Assembly: GCF_013375555.1 (NCBI RefSeq)
Contig: NZ_JABXWB010000002.1
Location: 1-64,000 of the forward strand
Length of the DNA: 64,000 nucleotides
Reading direction: 5' to 3'
Source of the DNA: Sphingobium sp. EM0848
Lineage (GTDB): Bacteria > Pseudomonadota > Alphaproteobacteria > Sphingomonadales > Sphingomonadaceae
Of the stretch, positions 52,872-62,525 are shown piece by piece. A program made the translations under genes and the position numbers. Position 1 is the first letter of the stretch. Every line of letters starts with the position of its first letter. The notes beneath the pieces were generated by a model. That model was not told the DNA's origin. It did not search any database and saw only the letters and a program-made list of their open reading frames with translations.

Positions 52872-53222
52872 ATGCTTGCCGCATTTTTGGACGATATTCG
52901 TGAGGGGGACATGATCGCGCCGCGCCGCATGGCGGAACGCCTGCGCCTACCGATGACGCGTCTATCGCGACTTGCGCACCTCAATCGCAACACCATGACC
53001 ACACATCCCGGCAGCCCGGCTGTGCAGGCCAAGCTGGGGGAAATTGCCCGGATCATCGCGCGCGCCGCCGATCTGGCCGGGGATGAAGGCAAGGCGATAA
53101 TCTGGTTCAAGCATCAGCCGCTTCCTGGATTTGGCAAGACGGCCGAGGAATTGGTCGAGGATGGGCATGCCGACATCGTGATCGAGGATCTCGATCGCAT
53201 GGCTGCTGGTGTCTATTCCTGA
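52872..53222 (+). CDS. Xre/MbcA/ParS-type antitoxin of RES system 2
   Basis: A 116-residue protein (AAGGAG before the ATG). The HTH part is IAPRRMAERLRLPMTRLSRLAHLNRN; the C-terminal toxin-binding part is ARIIARAADLAGDEGKAIIWFKHQPLPGFGKTAEELVEDG, with the conserved PLPGFGKTA motif of RES antitoxins. It neutralises the RES toxin 66 bases downstream. It sits just behind parB, where it stabilises plasmid inheritance. Confidence 0.87.
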   Translation: MLAAFLDDIREGDMIAPRRMAERLRLPMTRLSRLAHLNRNTMTTHPGSPAVQAKLGEIARIIARAADLAGDEGKAIIWFKHQPLPGFGKTAEELVEDGHADIVIEDLDRMAAGVYS

Positions 53223-53288
53223 CATGGCTCAGCCTGGTTCACAGAATTGACCGTGCCCATGTCTCTTTCCCGCCGGTAGAGCGGTGCC

Positions 53289-53807
53289 ATGACCTATGTG
53301 CTTGCGCCAATGTCACTTCCGCTCTGGCGGATGATCGGGATCCGCCATCAGTTTAGTCCGACGTCGGGGGAGGGCGCGCGACTATATGGCGGTCGCTGGA
53401 ATCGAAAGGGCGTTCCGGCGCTCTACCTGGCTGCAGATGCGGTCACCGCGGTGGCGGAATATTATCAGGGACTGCCGAAACCCGGAACGCTTGTTCCTTA
53501 TTATCTCGACGCCGCAGCTATCGCGGATCTCACTAACAGTACGGCGGAGCCTTGCGACACGCGGGTCGGGGAGGCCCTGGAAACAAACTGGAAAGCCATG
53601 GCGTTTTTTGATCGCCAGACACCGCCGAGCTGGGTGCTGACGGACGAACTGATTGCGGCGGGTGCGCAAGGTGCGTTGGTGCCCTCGGTCCAGAATCTGG
53701 GCGGGCGGAACCTGGTGCTGTGGCACTGGCATGAGAAGGATATGCAAGGGGAGGGTGCCGCGCTGACGGTCCTTGATCCTGACGATGCCTTGAGGCCTCC
53801 CCGTTAG
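53289..53807 (+). CDS. RES-domain toxin, system 2
   Basis: A 172-residue protein with the classic RES pattern: ARLYGGRWNRKGVPALYLAA, then VTAVAEYYQGLPKPG and the C-terminal SVQNLGGRNLVLWHWHE. RES toxins remove cellular NAD+. Together with the gene before it, it forms a plasmid addiction module. It belongs to a different subgroup from the longer RES protein at 14713-15411. Confidence 0.88.
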   Translation: MTYVLAPMSLPLWRMIGIRHQFSPTSGEGARLYGGRWNRKGVPALYLAADAVTAVAEYYQGLPKPGTLVPYYLDAAAIADLTNSTAEPCDTRVGEALETNWKAMAFFDRQTPPSWVLTDELIAAGAQGALVPSVQNLGGRNLVLWHWHEKDMQGEGAALTVLDPDDALRPPR

Positions 53808-55053: not shown

Positions 55054-55097
55054 GAAGCAGATTTGACGATTGTCTATAGGTGCGCTACAGGCGGGCC

Positions 55098-56351
55098 ATG
55101 GACGCGAGCGGGGTAGGCGGGCGCGAAAGCCACAAAAACGGCGGTATGGCCGGACCCGGCAGTGCGATCGTCGCACTGCCGGCTGCAACTATGCCGGAGA
55201 TCGCCTGGACCGTGACCCAGATGCGGGCAGGGAAACGCATCACCGTCAACGAGGAGCTCATCGCGGCCTTCCAGGCCGCCAGCTCGCCGCACTCAATCCG
55301 CGCGCTGAAGTCGGACCTCGAGGCGTTCGATCTCTGGTGCCGGCGTACCAACCGGATCGCGCTCCCCGCAACCCCCGAGGTCGTCGCCGACTATCTCGAC
55401 GCGCGGGCGGGGCAGGGAGCGAAGCCCGCCTCGCTCGGCCGCTACAGGGCATCGATCGCCAAAATCCACCAGTTGCTCGACCTCAAGGACCCGACCCAGG
55501 CCGAGCTGGTCAAGCTGCGGTTACGTGCAGTCCGCCGCGAGAAGGGGACGGCGCAGGCCCAGGCGCGGCCGCTGCGCTTCAAGGGGCCGGTGCGCGATGT
55601 CGCAGTCGACGCGCCGCGCGGGCTCAATGTGCGCGCATTGCTCGAGGCCTGCGCTGACGATCTGCCGGGGCTGCGCGATCGCGCTCTGCTCTCGGTCGCC
55701 TACGATACCGGACTCCGGGCGTCCGAGCTGGTGGCCATCGCGGTCGAGCATATCCTTGATGCCATCGATCCCGAGGCGCGGCTGCTCGCGATCCCACGAA
55801 GTAAGGGCGATCAGGACGGGGAGGGGGCAACCGCGTTTTTGTCACCTCGCTCGGTGCGCGCCATTGCTGCTTGGCAGAAGGCTGCGGGGATCGTGGTAGG
55901 TCCGCTGTTCCGGAGGGTGCAGGTGCGGCGCTACAAGGCTCGCGCCGCTGTGAAACCGCGCCGGATCGAGACGATTTCGGGGCGCGAGGCCTGGGATCTT
56001 CGCAAGCTCATGGGCCGACCCGCGGTTCCCGCGCGGGTAGAATACGATGTGGGCGAGGGGGCACTCCATCCCGGCTCGATCGGTCCGATCTGGCGGACAA
56101 TCATCCAGCGGGCGTTCGATCGCGGGGCGCTCGGCGACTTGACCGCCGATGATCTGGTGCGGCTGCTCAAGGGAATCAGCGCGCATTCGACGCGGGTGGG
56201 ATTGAACCAGGACCTGTTTGTAAGCGGCGAGGACCTTGCCGGCATCATGGATGCGTTGCGCTGGAAAAGTCCGCGCATGCCGCTTGCATACAATCGCAAT
56301 CTCGCCGCGGAGGCTGGGGCGGTCGGTCGCCTTACCAAGCGGCTCGAATGA
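55098..56351 (+). CDS. Tyrosine recombinase/integrase
   Basis: A protein of about 417 residues (ATG 55098; a GTG at 55080 is possible). It has the SAM-like N-terminal core-binding domain (SPHSIRALKSDLEAFDLWCR) and a catalytic domain with Arg (YDTGLRASELVAIAV), His-x-x-Arg (SAHSTRVGLNQDL) and Tyr (PRMPLAYNRNLAAEAG). It may resolve plasmid multimers or mobilise cargo. The next genes on the other strand are the graspetide cluster. Confidence 0.87.
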   Translation: MDASGVGGRESHKNGGMAGPGSAIVALPAATMPEIAWTVTQMRAGKRITVNEELIAAFQAASSPHSIRALKSDLEAFDLWCRRTNRIALPATPEVVADYLDARAGQGAKPASLGRYRASIAKIHQLLDLKDPTQAELVKLRLRAVRREKGTAQAQARPLRFKGPVRDVAVDAPRGLNVRALLEACADDLPGLRDRALLSVAYDTGLRASELVAIAVEHILDAIDPEARLLAIPRSKGDQDGEGATAFLSPRSVRAIAAWQKAAGIVVGPLFRRVQVRRYKARAAVKPRRIETISGREAWDLRKLMGRPAVPARVEYDVGEGALHPGSIGPIWRTIIQRAFDRGALGDLTADDLVRLLKGISAHSTRVGLNQDLFVSGEDLAGIMDALRWKSPRMPLAYNRNLAAEAGAVGRLTKRLE

Positions 56352-56455: not shown

Positions 56456-57298
56456 CTAGTGTGGCCTCACGCATTCCTTGGCGTGCTCGGGGCAATCGAG
56501 CTGGCGCGCGGGCCCTGGGCTAAGCTTGGTCACTACCGGCTGCTGACTAATGGGCGGTGCGACATGGGACGGCTTGACCGGTGATGGGTTGCCACCGGAA
56601 TCCGGTAGATTTTTACGCGGCGGAAACGCTGGCCGATCGCGCTCTACGACGACCGCCTTCGCCGGCGGCGGCTCTTGCGTCGCATTACGGAAGCCCATCG
56701 CGTAAAATAGCGGATCAAGGAGTAAAAGCAGGACGAATGTACCGAACGCCCGCAGCAGGTGCTCGTGCGTCACACGGATGCGGGTAATCTTCGCATTGAC
56801 TGCGTCTCTCGACCGCCTGGTTGCCAGGAGCGTGCCGCGCGTAAGTTTGCGCAGCGGCTTCTGCGTCTGCCACGCCGCCGCAATTTCCGCCTCCCCCACG
56901 CGTTGAAAGCCAGCCACTTGAAGCGTCTTGAAGGCGTGATAACCGGCCGCCGCAATGTAGATCGTCGCCACCGCCAGCACGAACAGCCGCGCGGCATCGG
57001 GCGCCGGCCCGGCTTTCTTCTCCCAGTTGGCTGCCTGGAGCGTGATGATGACGGGGACGAGTGCGGCCAGGACGGCAAGGTAGGTCGTGGCCTTGCTTTC
57101 AGCGGTCCGAACACGCTCAATCTCGGTGGCCGAGACCTTCTGGGCCTCGTCTAGCGCCCGTTCGTCGTTCAAGGTGTAGTCGGCAGCCTCAATGGCGGCG
57201 ATGTCTCTCTGAAGGCGCTGGTCCTCGACCGCCTGCTCAGCGGGCGTGAGCTTTTCGATGTATGGGAAGATTAGGTCGAGGGCGCGCCAGCCATTCAT
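56456..57298 (-). CDS. Membrane protein of the graspetide cluster
   Basis: A 280-residue protein; its ATG (57298) overlaps the stop of the ATP-grasp gene (ATGA). An N-terminal helical part precedes a hydrophobic segment (TYLAVLAALVPVIITLQAANW), a second (LFVLAVATIYIAAAGYHAF) and a third (LRAFGTFVLLLLLDPLFYAM), followed by a Pro-rich tail with three cysteines near the end. It lacks transporter motifs. The overlap suggests a role with the peptide, such as export, immunity or target; this is inference. Confidence 0.7.
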   Translation of the reverse strand: MNGWRALDLIFPYIEKLTPAEQAVEDQRLQRDIAAIEAADYTLNDERALDEAQKVSATEIERVRTAESKATTYLAVLAALVPVIITLQAANWEKKAGPAPDAARLFVLAVATIYIAAAGYHAFKTLQVAGFQRVGEAEIAAAWQTQKPLRKLTRGTLLATRRSRDAVNAKITRIRVTHEHLLRAFGTFVLLLLLDPLFYAMGFRNATQEPPPAKAVVVERDRPAFPPRKNLPDSGGNPSPVKPSHVAPPISQQPVVTKLSPGPARQLDCPEHAKECVRPH

Positions 57299-58260
57299 TC
57301 GCCGCGGTCGCCAGCGAGAGCATCGACGATGGCGGCGGTTACCGGCGCTCCCGTCCGCTGCTCGATCCAGGCCCACTGCCCATTCGGATTGGCCTCAAGG
57401 AACCAGAAGCGGCCGTCTTCGTCCTCCACAAGATCGATCGCAGCAAATCGCAGGCCGAGGTCCCGGGTCACCGCGATGCAGGCCAAGGCCAGATCCACAG
57501 GCAGCTCCATCGCCTCGTGCGCGAGATCGAGACGAACGCCCTTGCGCCAGTCGACCTGGGTCTCGTCGTGCGCCTGCGACAGGATCCTCGTCGCGAAGAT
57601 CGCGCCGTCGATCACGACCACCCGGACGTCTGACCTTTTGAGGATCTCCCGCTGCAGTATCAGCGGCGCTTGTCGAACGGCCTCCGTGTCGCCAGCCTCA
57701 AGCTCGGCAACCCGACTGGTGAAGATGACGCTGCCGACCTCGCCGTCGTCGATCAGGGCGTGGCGCAACGGCTTCGCCACCATGGAACCTTCGGCGAGGA
57801 AGGCCTGCGCCGCGTCGAAGGAGTTGGTAACGAGCGTATCGGGGATCGCCAGCCCCATGCGGCGCGCGGCGGCGAGCTGCCGCGGCTTGTCCTCCGCCCG
57901 CAGGATCGAAAATGGTGAGTTCAGCCAGCGGCCTTCGAGCACGTTCCAGAGGCTGCGCAGGATCGCCGACCATTCAGCGGTCACATAGGCGGCGGTCGCC
58001 TCCGCGCCTTCCGCCTCGAAGCTACCAGGCCGACGGTAATAGGCGCCGGTGACGTCCGAAAGGGAAAAGCTGCCGCACGGTCCGGTGAGCGTCAGTTCCG
58101 CAGGATCGCCATTTGCCATCACAAGTTCGTGTTGCGGTAGGTCCTCGGTGTTGAGGCGGATGAATGGCAGCCCGCGCCTGCGCATCTCGAGAACGACGAA
58201 GTCCGTCGTGACGTCGCGCTTGTTGGTGACGAGAAGGATCAAGCCGGGTCGTCCGCTCAC
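57295..58260 (-). CDS. MvdD-type ATP-grasp ligase (graspetide maturase)
   Basis: A 321-residue enzyme, GTG start overlapping the precursor stop (GTGA). It has the N-terminal part of ATP-grasp RiPP ligases (ILLVTNKRDVTTDFVVLEMRRRG, VTGAYYRRP), then the ATP-grasp fold: SILRAEDKPRQLAAARRMGLAIPDT, MVAKPLRHALI, ILQREILKRSDVRVVVIDG, and FAAIDLVEDEDGRFWFLEANPNGQW with the metal-binding Asp, Glu and Asn. It would link Thr/Ser or Lys side chains to Glu/Asp side chains in the precursor encoded just before it. Confidence 0.85.
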   Translation of the reverse strand: MSGRPGLILLVTNKRDVTTDFVVLEMRRRGLPFIRLNTEDLPQHELVMANGDPAELTLTGPCGSFSLSDVTGAYYRRPGSFEAEGAEATAAYVTAEWSAILRSLWNVLEGRWLNSPFSILRAEDKPRQLAAARRMGLAIPDTLVTNSFDAAQAFLAEGSMVAKPLRHALIDDGEVGSVIFTSRVAELEAGDTEAVRQAPLILQREILKRSDVRVVVIDGAIFATRILSQAHDETQVDWRKGVRLDLAHEAMELPVDLALACIAVTRDLGLRFAAIDLVEDEDGRFWFLEANPNGQWAWIEQRTGAPVTAAIVDALAGDRGE

Positions 58261-58631
58261 CAGTACGGCGTCACCGCCTCGTCGTCCCGTTCCTGCTGAA
58301 CGTCAGTCTTGGTCGTCAGCTCTGGAAGGCAAAGCGAGGCGTCCTCGTCATCCGCTTCCTGCCTGACTTTGGTAAACGTGCCTGTCTCCATCGACCCGAA
58401 CCGCGTGGGATCGTCGTCATCAACCTCAACATGCGTCATGGTCTTGCTCTGCGTAGCGACCAGTGATCCACCCGCGACCTCAATGATCGGAACTTCGCCA
58501 TCCTCGCTGTCGATGACCCAGACGCCGAGCTCGGGAGAATAGCGGCCAGGCATCTCTGAGTCGGCTGACCGAGGTGTCGCGAAGCGGAGCAGGAATGGAT
58601 CAGTTTTGATGACAGGGGAGAAAAAGGTCAT
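58257..58631 (-). CDS. Graspetide precursor with three core repeats
   Basis: A 124-residue peptide from the ATG at 58631 (a GTG at 58646 would add 5). The leader holds PFLLRFATPRS and PGRYSPELGVWVIDSEDGEVP, the type of recognition segment read by MvdD-like ligases. The C-terminal half has three copies of TxTxVxx(E/D)xDD: TMTHVEVDDDD (64-74), TFTKVRQEADD (85-95) and TKTDVQQERDD (107-117). Thr hydroxyls joined to Glu/Asp carboxyls would give ester-linked macrocycles. The operon is tightly overlapped with the ligase. Length and repeats fit multi-core graspetides. Confidence 0.8.
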   Translation of the reverse strand: MTFFSPVIKTDPFLLRFATPRSADSEMPGRYSPELGVWVIDSEDGEVPIIEVAGGSLVATQSKTMTHVEVDDDDPTRFGSMETGTFTKVRQEADDEDASLCLPELTTKTDVQQERDDEAVTPYW

Positions 58632-60168: not shown

Positions 60169-61614
60169 ATGAAGCTGGTTTCTCAGTTTACGTCTTTTCT
60201 CAAAGACACGGTCAACCTCAATCAGACCCGCATCGACCTGCTTGAATCCAACGTGGAAGCGATCAGGAATTTCATCCGCCAGTGCGAATGGTCCCCCCGG
60301 GTCCGTGGATTTGAAGAACAGGGTTCGTGGGCGCACGACACGATTATCAAGCCGGTTGATGGCGGCGAATTCGATGCTGACCTTCTGGTTGTCGTGGATC
60401 CCGTCGATGGCTGGAGCGCGAAGGACTATGTCGCGAAGCTGGGAAAGGCATTCGCTGACAGCTCCGTCTATGGCTCCAAGGCTAAAACCTGGGACTATTG
60501 CGTCACCATCACCTATCCCGGCGAGCGCAAGGTCGATATCGCCCCGCTGGTTCGATCACGGAAATATGACGGAAGCCAGGAGGTCTGCAATCGTGCTGCC
60601 GACCGCTTCGATGCCAGCGAACCGGTGGAATTCACGGCATGGCTCCGTGAGCGCAATGCACTGTCGGGATCAAACAGCTTCCGCAAAGTGACGCGATTGA
60701 TGAAATATCTCCGGGACATCAAGACTACGTTCACCTGCCCCTCGGTTTTGCTCACGACGCTGCTGGGCATGCAGATCCACTGGTACGACAAGGATTCCGA
60801 CGCATTTTCGGATGTCCCTACCACCCTGCGGACAGTCATCGGACGGCTTGATGATTGGCTGCAGGATCGGCCGGCTAAACCGCGGGTGGAGAACCCGAAG
60901 CTTTCGAGCGAGGATTTTGCTGCCAGCTGGACCGATACCCAGTATCTGAACTTCAGGTCGTTCATTCACAAATATCGTGGATGGATTGACGAGGCCTATC
61001 TCGCTGAAGACCGCGCTGCCAGTATTACTGCGTGGCGGCGTGTTTTTGGCGAGGCCTTTGCCAAGGGCGAAGTAGTAGAAGCGTCTAAGGCCAATGGGGA
61101 GGGCGTGTCGCGAGTGCGGGCTCTGCTGACCAGTACCGCCGCTCATCTCGACAGCCTGGTCGAGGTCGTTCGTGATTATGGCGTGTCGGTCCTCCCAGAT
61201 TTCTTCTACCGGCCCCCGCATATGCTCGAGCCCAGTTGGAGCAGGGCGCCGCACGTGTCGCGCGATGTCCATGTCACGGCGACTTGGCATCAAACTCGCA
61301 ATGTGAATGCCATTCGCACGGTAACGCCAGGAGAGGTGCTGTCCCGCCGGGGAGGCTTGTGGTTCGAAGCGAGGATCGGCGGAGGACAGCCGTTGCCCAG
61401 CGGTTTTCGGGTACAGTGGCGCATCACCAATACAGGCGCGGCGGCGCTGTCACTGCGGCAGGGGCGTGGCGACTTCTATACTCCCCAGCAAAATGGACGG
61501 CGGTGGGAGGAGCTGCATTATCGTGGCGTGCATCTCGCCGAGGCCTTCATCATCAGGATGGCCGACGATGTCCTTGTCGGACAAAGTCCGCCGTTCCACG
61601 TGGTGATTGAGTGA
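60169..61614 (+). CDS. CBASS CD-NTase (SMODS nucleotidyltransferase with AGS-C domain)
   Basis: A 481-residue enzyme. The nucleotidyltransferase motif is QGSWAHDTIIKP (G52, S53) with EFDADLLVVV (D69, D71) and KVDIAPLV for the third acidic residue; helical SMODS region from about 170. The C-terminal AGS-C sensor domain appears from about 380: LWFEARIG, GFRVQWRITNTGAAALSLRQGRGDF and ELHYRGVHLAEAFIIR. It would make a cyclic oligonucleotide on phage infection. The effector gene overlaps its stop. Confidence 0.88.
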   Translation: MKLVSQFTSFLKDTVNLNQTRIDLLESNVEAIRNFIRQCEWSPRVRGFEEQGSWAHDTIIKPVDGGEFDADLLVVVDPVDGWSAKDYVAKLGKAFADSSVYGSKAKTWDYCVTITYPGERKVDIAPLVRSRKYDGSQEVCNRAADRFDASEPVEFTAWLRERNALSGSNSFRKVTRLMKYLRDIKTTFTCPSVLLTTLLGMQIHWYDKDSDAFSDVPTTLRTVIGRLDDWLQDRPAKPRVENPKLSSEDFAASWTDTQYLNFRSFIHKYRGWIDEAYLAEDRAASITAWRRVFGEAFAKGEVVEASKANGEGVSRVRALLTSTAAHLDSLVEVVRDYGVSVLPDFFYRPPHMLEPSWSRAPHVSRDVHVTATWHQTRNVNAIRTVTPGEVLSRRGGLWFEARIGGGQPLPSGFRVQWRITNTGAAALSLRQGRGDFYTPQQNGRRWEELHYRGVHLAEAFIIRMADDVLVGQSPPFHVVIE

Positions 61615-62525
61615 CTATGAACGACATAGCTGAGCGTCAAAACGCACCGCATTTCTTGCGCTTGCTGCGCGCCCGATCCGAGATCTATCGGCGCGCCACC
61701 CGCCTGCAGCTGGTGCAGGTCACGTTGACCGTCATTGTCCCGGTCGTGATGGCGATCGTCGCGCTATTCACGCCAGCGATACGCCCGTTCGCTGGCGCAT
61801 TATCGGTCAGCCTCACGCTCATTGACATCGGATTTCTCGACAGAGCTTTGAAGCGCCGCTTGAAGACTGCGGCTCTGATCTGCGAGCGGTTCGACTGCGA
61901 CCTTCTAAGACTGCCATGGAGCAAATTCGCCGCCGGCAAGCCGCTTGAACCGGAGATTATCACCGAGGCGGATCGGCGATGGCCCAAGGGCGATGCAAAG
62001 CTCATCGATTGGTATCCGACCGCCGTCGGACGGGCGCCATTGCATTTAGCACGGATAATCTGCCAGCGAACAAATCTGTGGTATGACGCAAAGCTGCGCG
62101 AAAACTACAGTTTCCTATTGGTCGCCGGGGCCGTCGCAATCGTGCTCGCGTTGGTAGCTGCTGGGCTAGCCCTCAATCTGCCCTTCACTGATTTTGTCGT
62201 CACGGTCCTCGTTCCAGCAACCCCGGTTCTGTCCTGGGCTGTGCGCGATGCCTTTCGGCAGCGTGATGCGGCCGATGCTCAGAAACTGGCCCGCGCAGAG
62301 GCCGAAGCACTATGGGAGCTGGCGCTCGCGGGAGGTTGCGACGACAGCGAATGTGAAAGGCGGTCACGCGAATTTCAGAACAGCATATTCCAGCGCAGAA
62401 CCAGTAATCCGCTGCTCCTGCCTTTCGTCTATCATTGGCTCCGATCTGGGATGGAGCTCGACATGAATCTGGGGGCCGCTGAGTTTCTGCGCCAGGCTGG
62501 GATAGCCGAAGTCAATCAATCCTGA
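61611..62525 (+). CDS. S-4TM family CBASS effector
   Basis: A 304-residue protein whose GTG start overlaps the CD-NTase stop (GTGA). There are two pairs of membrane helices: LVQVTLTVIVPVVMAIVALF with FAGALSVSLTLIDIGFL, and FLLVAGAVAIVLALVAAGLA with FVVTVLVPATPVLSWAV. The soluble parts contain the S-4TM segments ERQNAPHFLRLLRARSEIYRR at the start and RRTSNPLLLPFVYHWLR near the end. On binding the cyclic nucleotide such effectors are predicted to form pores and kill the infected cell. It makes this a type I-like CBASS with no Cap2/Cap3. Confidence 0.87.
   Translation: MTMNDIAERQNAPHFLRLLRARSEIYRRATRLQLVQVTLTVIVPVVMAIVALFTPAIRPFAGALSVSLTLIDIGFLDRALKRRLKTAALICERFDCDLLRLPWSKFAAGKPLEPEIITEADRRWPKGDAKLIDWYPTAVGRAPLHLARIICQRTNLWYDAKLRENYSFLLVAGAVAIVLALVAAGLALNLPFTDFVVTVLVPATPVLSWAVRDAFRQRDAADAQKLARAEAEALWELALAGGCDDSECERRSREFQNSIFQRRTSNPLLLPFVYHWLRSGMELDMNLGAAEFLRQAGIAEVNQS

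Follow-up and report, generated by a model that had tools for sequence, protein, structure and literature searches.

A mobile three-gene cassette of multi-core graspetide, ligase and membrane protein that may protect from phages

Sphingobium sp. EM0848 carries a three-gene cassette on the minus strand of the window (bases 56456-58631; the window is the whole stretch analysed here, i.e. bases 1-64000 of one contig), which raises the question of why a graspetide precursor and its ligase are followed by a membrane protein. Multi-core graspetide clusters have been mined mainly as sources of inhibitors, and the initial annotation of this locus regarded the membrane protein as a candidate new export or immunity factor. 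The comparisons reported here suggest that the trio may protect from phages rather than yield a secreted antibiotic. Successive genes overlap by 4 bases, GTGA between precursor and ligase and ATGA between ligase and membrane gene, and both the overlaps and the coordinates of the precursor, the ATP-grasp ligase and the three-helix membrane protein (Table 1) agree with that annotation. The contig, one of five in a genome of 5.64 Mb, is likely a plasmid, because it is 121,032 bases long and carries a ParB-type gene (SopB HTH). This gene is adjoined by a toxin-antitoxin pair consisting of an Xre/MbcA antitoxin and a RES-domain toxin (52872-53807, plus strand).

Table 1. Features of the cassette and of its surroundings, with positions in the window
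Feature	Position	Strand	Basis or remark
Graspetide precursor, 124 aa	58631 (ATG) to 58257 (stop)	-	Sequence; cores kept in relatives
Leader motif PFLLRFATPR, residues 12-21	58569-58598	-	Resembles PFF/Phhxxh leader motif; similar motif in relatives' precursors
Core 1 SKTMTHVEVDD, residues 62-72, then DD	58416-58448	-	Conserved in relatives
Core 2 TFTKVRQEADD, residues 85-95, extra Thr83 before, Asp97 after	58347-58379	-	
Core 3 TKTDVQQERDD, residues 107-117	58281-58313	-	
ATP-grasp graspetide ligase (macrocyclase), 321 aa	58260 (GTG) to 57295 (stop)	-	Profile matches, catalytic residues
Three-helix membrane protein, 280 aa	57298 (ATG) to 56456 (stop)	-	Probable remote PycTM relative
Tyrosine integrase, outside cassette	55080-56351	+	Pfam Phage_integrase 5.3e-10
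CBASS pair, outside cassette	60169-62525	+	CD-NTase 60169-61614, 4TM effector 61611-62525

The precursor adjoins the ligase and combines a leader motif with cores of Thr/Ser and Glu/Asp, three in number and placed after PFLLRF as first described. Leader motifs of the Phhxxh type are the site bound by graspetide ligases according to Makarova et al. 2022 (PMC8939145). One detail of the initial annotation is wrong, namely an Asp in core 1 at the place where the other cores have Glu. The true register, taken from relatives, is [T/S]KTxxxxExDD, often with further acidic residues behind, and in this register core 1 of the window has Ser at position 1 and Glu69 at position 8, as the Glu of the other cores. 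The reported Asp resulted from a two-residue register slip (TMTHVEVDDDD, a start two residues late), and the equivalents of core 1 in relatives are TKTMTQVEADD (L012, L014) and TKTMQHVEADD (L008), the slipped register costing the latter its second Thr.

A search for the core motif in related precursors, an idea of the same annotation, was made with a regular expression over 85 precursor regions (84 ligase loci and the window), overlapping registers being counted. It gave 255 matches in 77 of the 85 regions, i.e. 3.3 matches per frame (in the regions with any match) against 0.026 in shuffled frames, and the cores are far above chance. Among the 255 matches, Thr is found at position 1 in 244 and at position 3 in 252, Glu at position 8 in 243, and Asp at positions 10 and 11 in 251 and 252, a conservation that arises partly by construction, because the expression admits few letters at these five positions. 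Lys at position 2 (209 of 255) is free of this constraint. Core 2 of the window could possibly form a third ring, since an additional Thr precedes it and an additional Asp follows it. The precursors of L003 and L019 harbor six cores, double the number of the window.

The ligase is an ATP-grasp protein of the MvdC/MvdD/TIGR04187 kind in which the catalytic D, E and N are present. Its bit scores (TIGR04187, 266 with a cut-off of 350; MvdC, 179; MvdD, 150) all lie below the curated cut-offs, and Pfam gives a match to RimK. Its best relatives of solved structure are the ATP-grasp ligases 9bou, 5ig8, 7m4s and 7mgv, which we take to be ligases of graspetide type. Residues D276, E289 and N291 and the stretch FLExNPNGQWAWIE are invariant in all 26 aligned ligases. 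The ligase family and the catalytic residues are shared with the microviridin and plesiocin synthetases, whereas the core spacing of microviridin and plesiocin differs from that of the cassette. With the TIGR04187 match and the conserved cores, there is good support for the prediction, already made in the initial annotation, of a graspetide cluster with several cores on what is probably a plasmid.

The membrane protein has at least 141 homologues at E<=0.001 in the protein collection (8000 candidates scored), and no Pfam domain was found in the 120 homologues listed. An AlphaFold2 model (mean pLDDT 84) has long helices at residues 45-92, 101-127 and 148-200, followed by a loose tail that starts near residue 201; no convincing match was found among solved structures. 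Conserved residues cluster before helix 1 (E59, R62, K69) and before helix 3 (N168, K170), and this conserved face is presumably the inner, cytosolic side of the membrane.

Several comparisons point to PycTM, the membrane effector of the anti-phage system Pycsar. In a PADLOC scan of 54 diverse members of the family, 34, 24 and 21 of them were hit at E<=1 by three models of PycTM (best 4.1e-7), and other models match at most five members each; the membrane protein of the window itself reaches an E of 0.018. For profile comparison, ten of the 13 PycTM matches found in the class of the window were used. The broad alignment A2 is colinear with them over 155 columns, from AExKA/ADxKA through TM1, TM2 and the linker to TM3 (probability 46%; E 3.3e-5, calculated for one comparison), alignment A3 gives a probability of 8% and an E of 0.0011, and the narrow alignment A1 gave no match to PycTM. 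When a PycTM profile was run against 15,751 locus ORFs, the top four were cassette proteins (E 0.013-0.22), two of them near-identical. A score of at least 5 bits against this profile was obtained by 14 of the 54 real members, by 1 of 54 reversed sequences and by 6 of the 518 block-shuffled sequences scored. Of the 106 Pfam families for the 54 members, the 25 listed include no PycTM family. The membrane protein is thus probably a remote relative of PycTM, as far as these profiles tell, homology not being certain. A separate PycTM-like gene lies elsewhere in the genome (contig C1, 205797-206216, L097, E 1.8e-12).

In the profile comparison, Pycsar and the cassette share the ADxKA/AExKA motif before TM1, the succession of TM1, TM2 and linker, and a Lys-bearing helix leading into TM3. 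Both are also sparsely spread, PycTM being present in 12 of 289 genomes of the window's class. In contrast, the cassette has a peptide and a peptide ligase where Pycsar has a pyrimidine cyclase: no uridylate/cytidylate cyclase (PycC) is present among its three genes, nor any sensor or cyclase of another kind. The CD-NTase close by belongs to CBASS, is placed divergently and comes with a 4TM effector of its own; this pair lies 1.5 kb from the cassette and has PADLOC matches of 1.1e-182 (CD-NTase) and 3e-110 (4TM effector) as well as Pfam matches to SMODS and AGS_C. We know of no PycTM-like protein in microviridin or plesiocin clusters. PycTM itself is reported to disrupt the membrane upon phage infection (PMC11224242).

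The initial annotation had staked its reading on the membrane protein being conserved with the precursor and ligase, and this is the case for most of the 84 ligase loci, which comprise the best 80 of 168 relatives found by a genome scan with the ligase plus four from plasmids, near-duplicates included. Directly downstream of the ligase, the membrane profile matches at E<1e-3 in 72 loci and gives no match in 12, and an ORF of at least 150 aa with at least two hydrophobic segments is present in 83. The start of the membrane gene overlaps the ligase stop in 78 of the 84, a count that favours overlap because, of all start codons near the ligase stop, the one giving the longest ORF was taken. TKTxxxxExDD-type cores are found within 1.1 kb upstream in 73 of the 84 loci (at least two cores in 67), and three of the 11 loci where this search found none (L009, L011, L052) do show cores on inspection of the precursor. 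Record titles assign the hosts to Pseudomonadota, Bacteroidota, Bacillota and metagenome genomes of other phyla; no Bacillus record is present among the 40 plasmid matches listed. In the window's order, the ligase is found at E<=1e-30 in six of 246 genomes, one being a weak partial match, and the membrane profile at E<=1e-4 in five, always beside the ligase, so that the cassette is rare and scattered there and inherited as a unit. No orphan membrane protein was found in these 246 genomes at E<=1e-4, with at most ten candidates scored per genome. As read from these genomes, the trio is a mobile cassette inherited together across phyla.

The neighbourhood of the cassettes was scanned with PADLOC at E<=1e-10, taking up to three nearest ORFs (110-800 aa) per locus, which covered 74 of the 84 loci and 213 genes. 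Seven loci had been left out by eye as near-duplicates (L003, L011, L014, L017, L048, L053, L064) and three had no ORF remaining after the filters (L069, L081, L084). The scan matched 235 models in 106 neighbour genes and 196 models in the other 107, compared with 16 models in 106 genes from 19 random stretches and 116 models in 106 of 119 genes from integrase flanks (18 of 20 stretches), both controls coming from the window's class only. The statistic counts models, not genes, with 25 models listed per scan; in the integrase-flank control, the 25 listed correspond to one gene per model. The enrichment in defence genes is soft, because the matched models are about twice those of integrase flanks and the models are redundant.

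Defence genes lie beside 16 of the 74 loci and are of Gabija type (nine), Qat (two), Wadjet (two), Orf5/HEC-06 (two) and PDC-M01A (one), although a lone GajB-type helicase need not imply a Gabija system. The Orf5/HEC-06 genes are presumably GmrSD-like. Single-gene scans back eight of these loci (L002, L006, L009, L027, L031, L033, L034, L042), and the other eight (L028, L030, L037, L039, L056, L058, L065, L076) were added by BLAST clustering with scanned genes, at only 22-28% identity for L056, L065 and L076. The 16 loci are partly dependent, since the helicases of L034 and L037 are 96% identical and the JetA genes of L033 and L039 98% identical, each pair being the same island in near relatives.

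Moreover, cassettes were found on viral contigs. Among the six of 11 such loci that were inspected, five have a membrane homologue, four of these together with at least two TKT cores; L176 lacks TKT cores, and L179 lacks both TKT cores and the membrane homologue. The cassette of L174 is flanked by a tail protein gene (phrog_52, 6.6e-81) with a tape measure gene behind it and by a DNA primase gene on the opposite side, a tail fibre gene lies about 3 kb from the cassette of L175, and a baseplate wedge protein gene lies less than 1 kb from that of L177. In Leptospira phage LE1 (KF114876.1), the gene for a RimK-like ATP-grasp protein is preceded by a short ORF and followed by an overlapping gene for a hypothetical protein. 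Judging from these neighbours, some cassettes ride on phages. The accessory cargo of prophages often protects against other phages, and phage carriage therefore fits defence better than antibiotic export.

Part of this architecture has been described. Thuringinin-type graspetides (groups 3-6 of Lee et al. 2020) resemble the product of the cassette in having repeated Thr/Glu/Asp cores after a Phhxxh leader, and their loci likewise encode one ATP-grasp ligase and an uncharacterised membrane protein, mostly without a transporter (PMC8939145). Makarova et al. 2022 report multi-repeat precursors in groups 3, 5 and 6, thuringinin included, and list two clusters of uncharacterised membrane proteins (18 and 40) from graspetide loci; they suggest transport for the membrane proteins of thuringinin loci, and the available part of their article mentions neither PycTM nor defence (PMC8939145). 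The cassette probably corresponds to their precursor cluster 13 and membrane cluster 18, and its membrane protein has probably been noticed already, which speaks against the newness claimed in the initial annotation. Carter et al. 2026 added 19 graspetide groups to 24 and demonstrated partner-dependent biosynthesis; the word 'phage' is absent from their main text (PMC13097080). Among the open-access literature matches listed, neither a link to PycTM nor a defence proposal was found for such graspetides, and the probable link to PycTM, the location near defence genes and the carriage on phages are new here.

There is about an even chance, in our judgement, that the cassette is a mobile conflict module of three genes, directed most likely against phages, and that a multi-core graspetide inside the cell controls an effector that damages the membrane; control, membrane damage and defence are what we infer for it. 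The ligase would close side-chain esters within each core, the simplest ring pattern being Thr3-Glu8 inside Thr1-Asp10/11, i.e. a hairpin bicycle, and the product would be a single peptide that stays in the cell and displays several knobs of a similar kind. Such a multivalent peptide could bind an oligomeric membrane protein on its conserved cytosolic side and keep it harmless. Infection would halt production of the peptide or destroy it, and the released membrane protein would breach the membrane and stop phage growth. The opposite sign, with effector opening brought about by the finished peptide, is almost as good a fit; the antitoxin-like sign is slightly preferred, because the effector gene comes last in the overlapping operon, after those of the precursor and ligase. 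Ester formation, binding, gating and killing are all predictions. A comparable idea has been put forward for DRT10, a reverse transcriptase with an ncRNA and a SLATT membrane protein, whose product is also repetitive: its authors propose that the repeats may multivalently engage an oligomeric membrane effector and keep it in check (PMC12632851). The product of DRT10 is a tandem-repeat DNA, whereas that of the cassette is a predicted macrocyclic peptide.

The more specific and far-reaching proposal, i.e. a widespread anti-phage system in which an ester-linked multi-bicycle ribosomal peptide, made by its own ligase, is the intracellular ligand that holds or fires a PycTM-like effector, is advanced tentatively and is possible rather than probable. 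If true, a macrocyclic peptide would stand beside cyclic nucleotides as a signal that controls membrane effectors, in the place that these have in Pycsar and CBASS. Should the membrane partner be an immune effector, a large group of RiPP clusters would belong to bacterial immunity. The cassette consists of three small genes and is hence directly testable.

A secreted graspetide that acts as a protease inhibitor or like a bacteriocin, with a membrane protein that exports the peptide or gives immunity to its producer, is an unlikely explanation but one that deserves consideration. Acidic peptides that combine a leader with several cores are characteristic of exported RiPPs. Transport is the published proposal for the thuringinin-locus membrane proteins (PMC8939145), and plesiocin, like other known graspetides with several cores, inhibits serine proteases (PMC13097080). 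However, according to Pfam and NCBIfam none of the three genes encodes a protease or a transporter, of ABC or other type, and the membrane protein of the window matches no transporter family at E<=1; across the 54 members, matches of this kind are weak in the part of the Pfam scan that was listed (25 families of 106), as for MFS_1 in two members with a best E of 0.0025. The PycTM-like sequence and the defence-gene and phage settings also argue against secretion, and with it against the export role first suggested for the membrane protein. Export or immunity is therefore not the best reading of this protein, although a part in immunity is conceivable.

The overlapping genes and near-strict co-occurrence would equally be expected of a biosynthetic partner that anchors or activates the ligase, like the partners required for rosaritide and corallotide, and partner-dependent synthetases do exist (PMC13097080). 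Nevertheless, the partner and tailoring proteins published in the available part of that article are a PPIase-like protein and an oxygenase, none of them a membrane protein, and such a role leaves the PycTM similarity and the defence and phage context unexplained, so that we consider it improbable. Microviridins and plesiocin inhibit serine proteases, the potency of plesiocin growing with the number of cyclised motifs (PMC13097080), which is in line with an intracellular inhibitor of a phage or host protease for which the membrane protein merely serves as a location anchor. The conserved inner-face residues and the similarity to PycTM point instead to an active role of the membrane protein, and an inhibitor with a mere anchor is very improbable.

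Some relatives of the cassette depart from the layout of the window. One or two extra ORFs follow the membrane gene in the close relatives L002 (6847-7961), L007 (6835-7947) and L009 (6853-7965), unlike in the window, where none was seen behind the membrane gene; in L002, the extra ORF again has a 4-base overlap, and no Pfam match was obtained for the extra ORFs of this locus. The membrane gene is split across two frames in L011 (5945-6852) and occupies one frame in the closely similar L009. L067 (3874-4527) is the sole locus lacking a downstream ORF of 150 aa and has a weak match to the membrane profile upstream of the precursor (E 0.0037), so the gene order may be swapped there. Finally, L176 (5795-7628) and L084 (2983-4917) keep the three-gene layout with another precursor core (around THSKT and GDDDPD), and the membrane protein may therefore accompany more than one core type.
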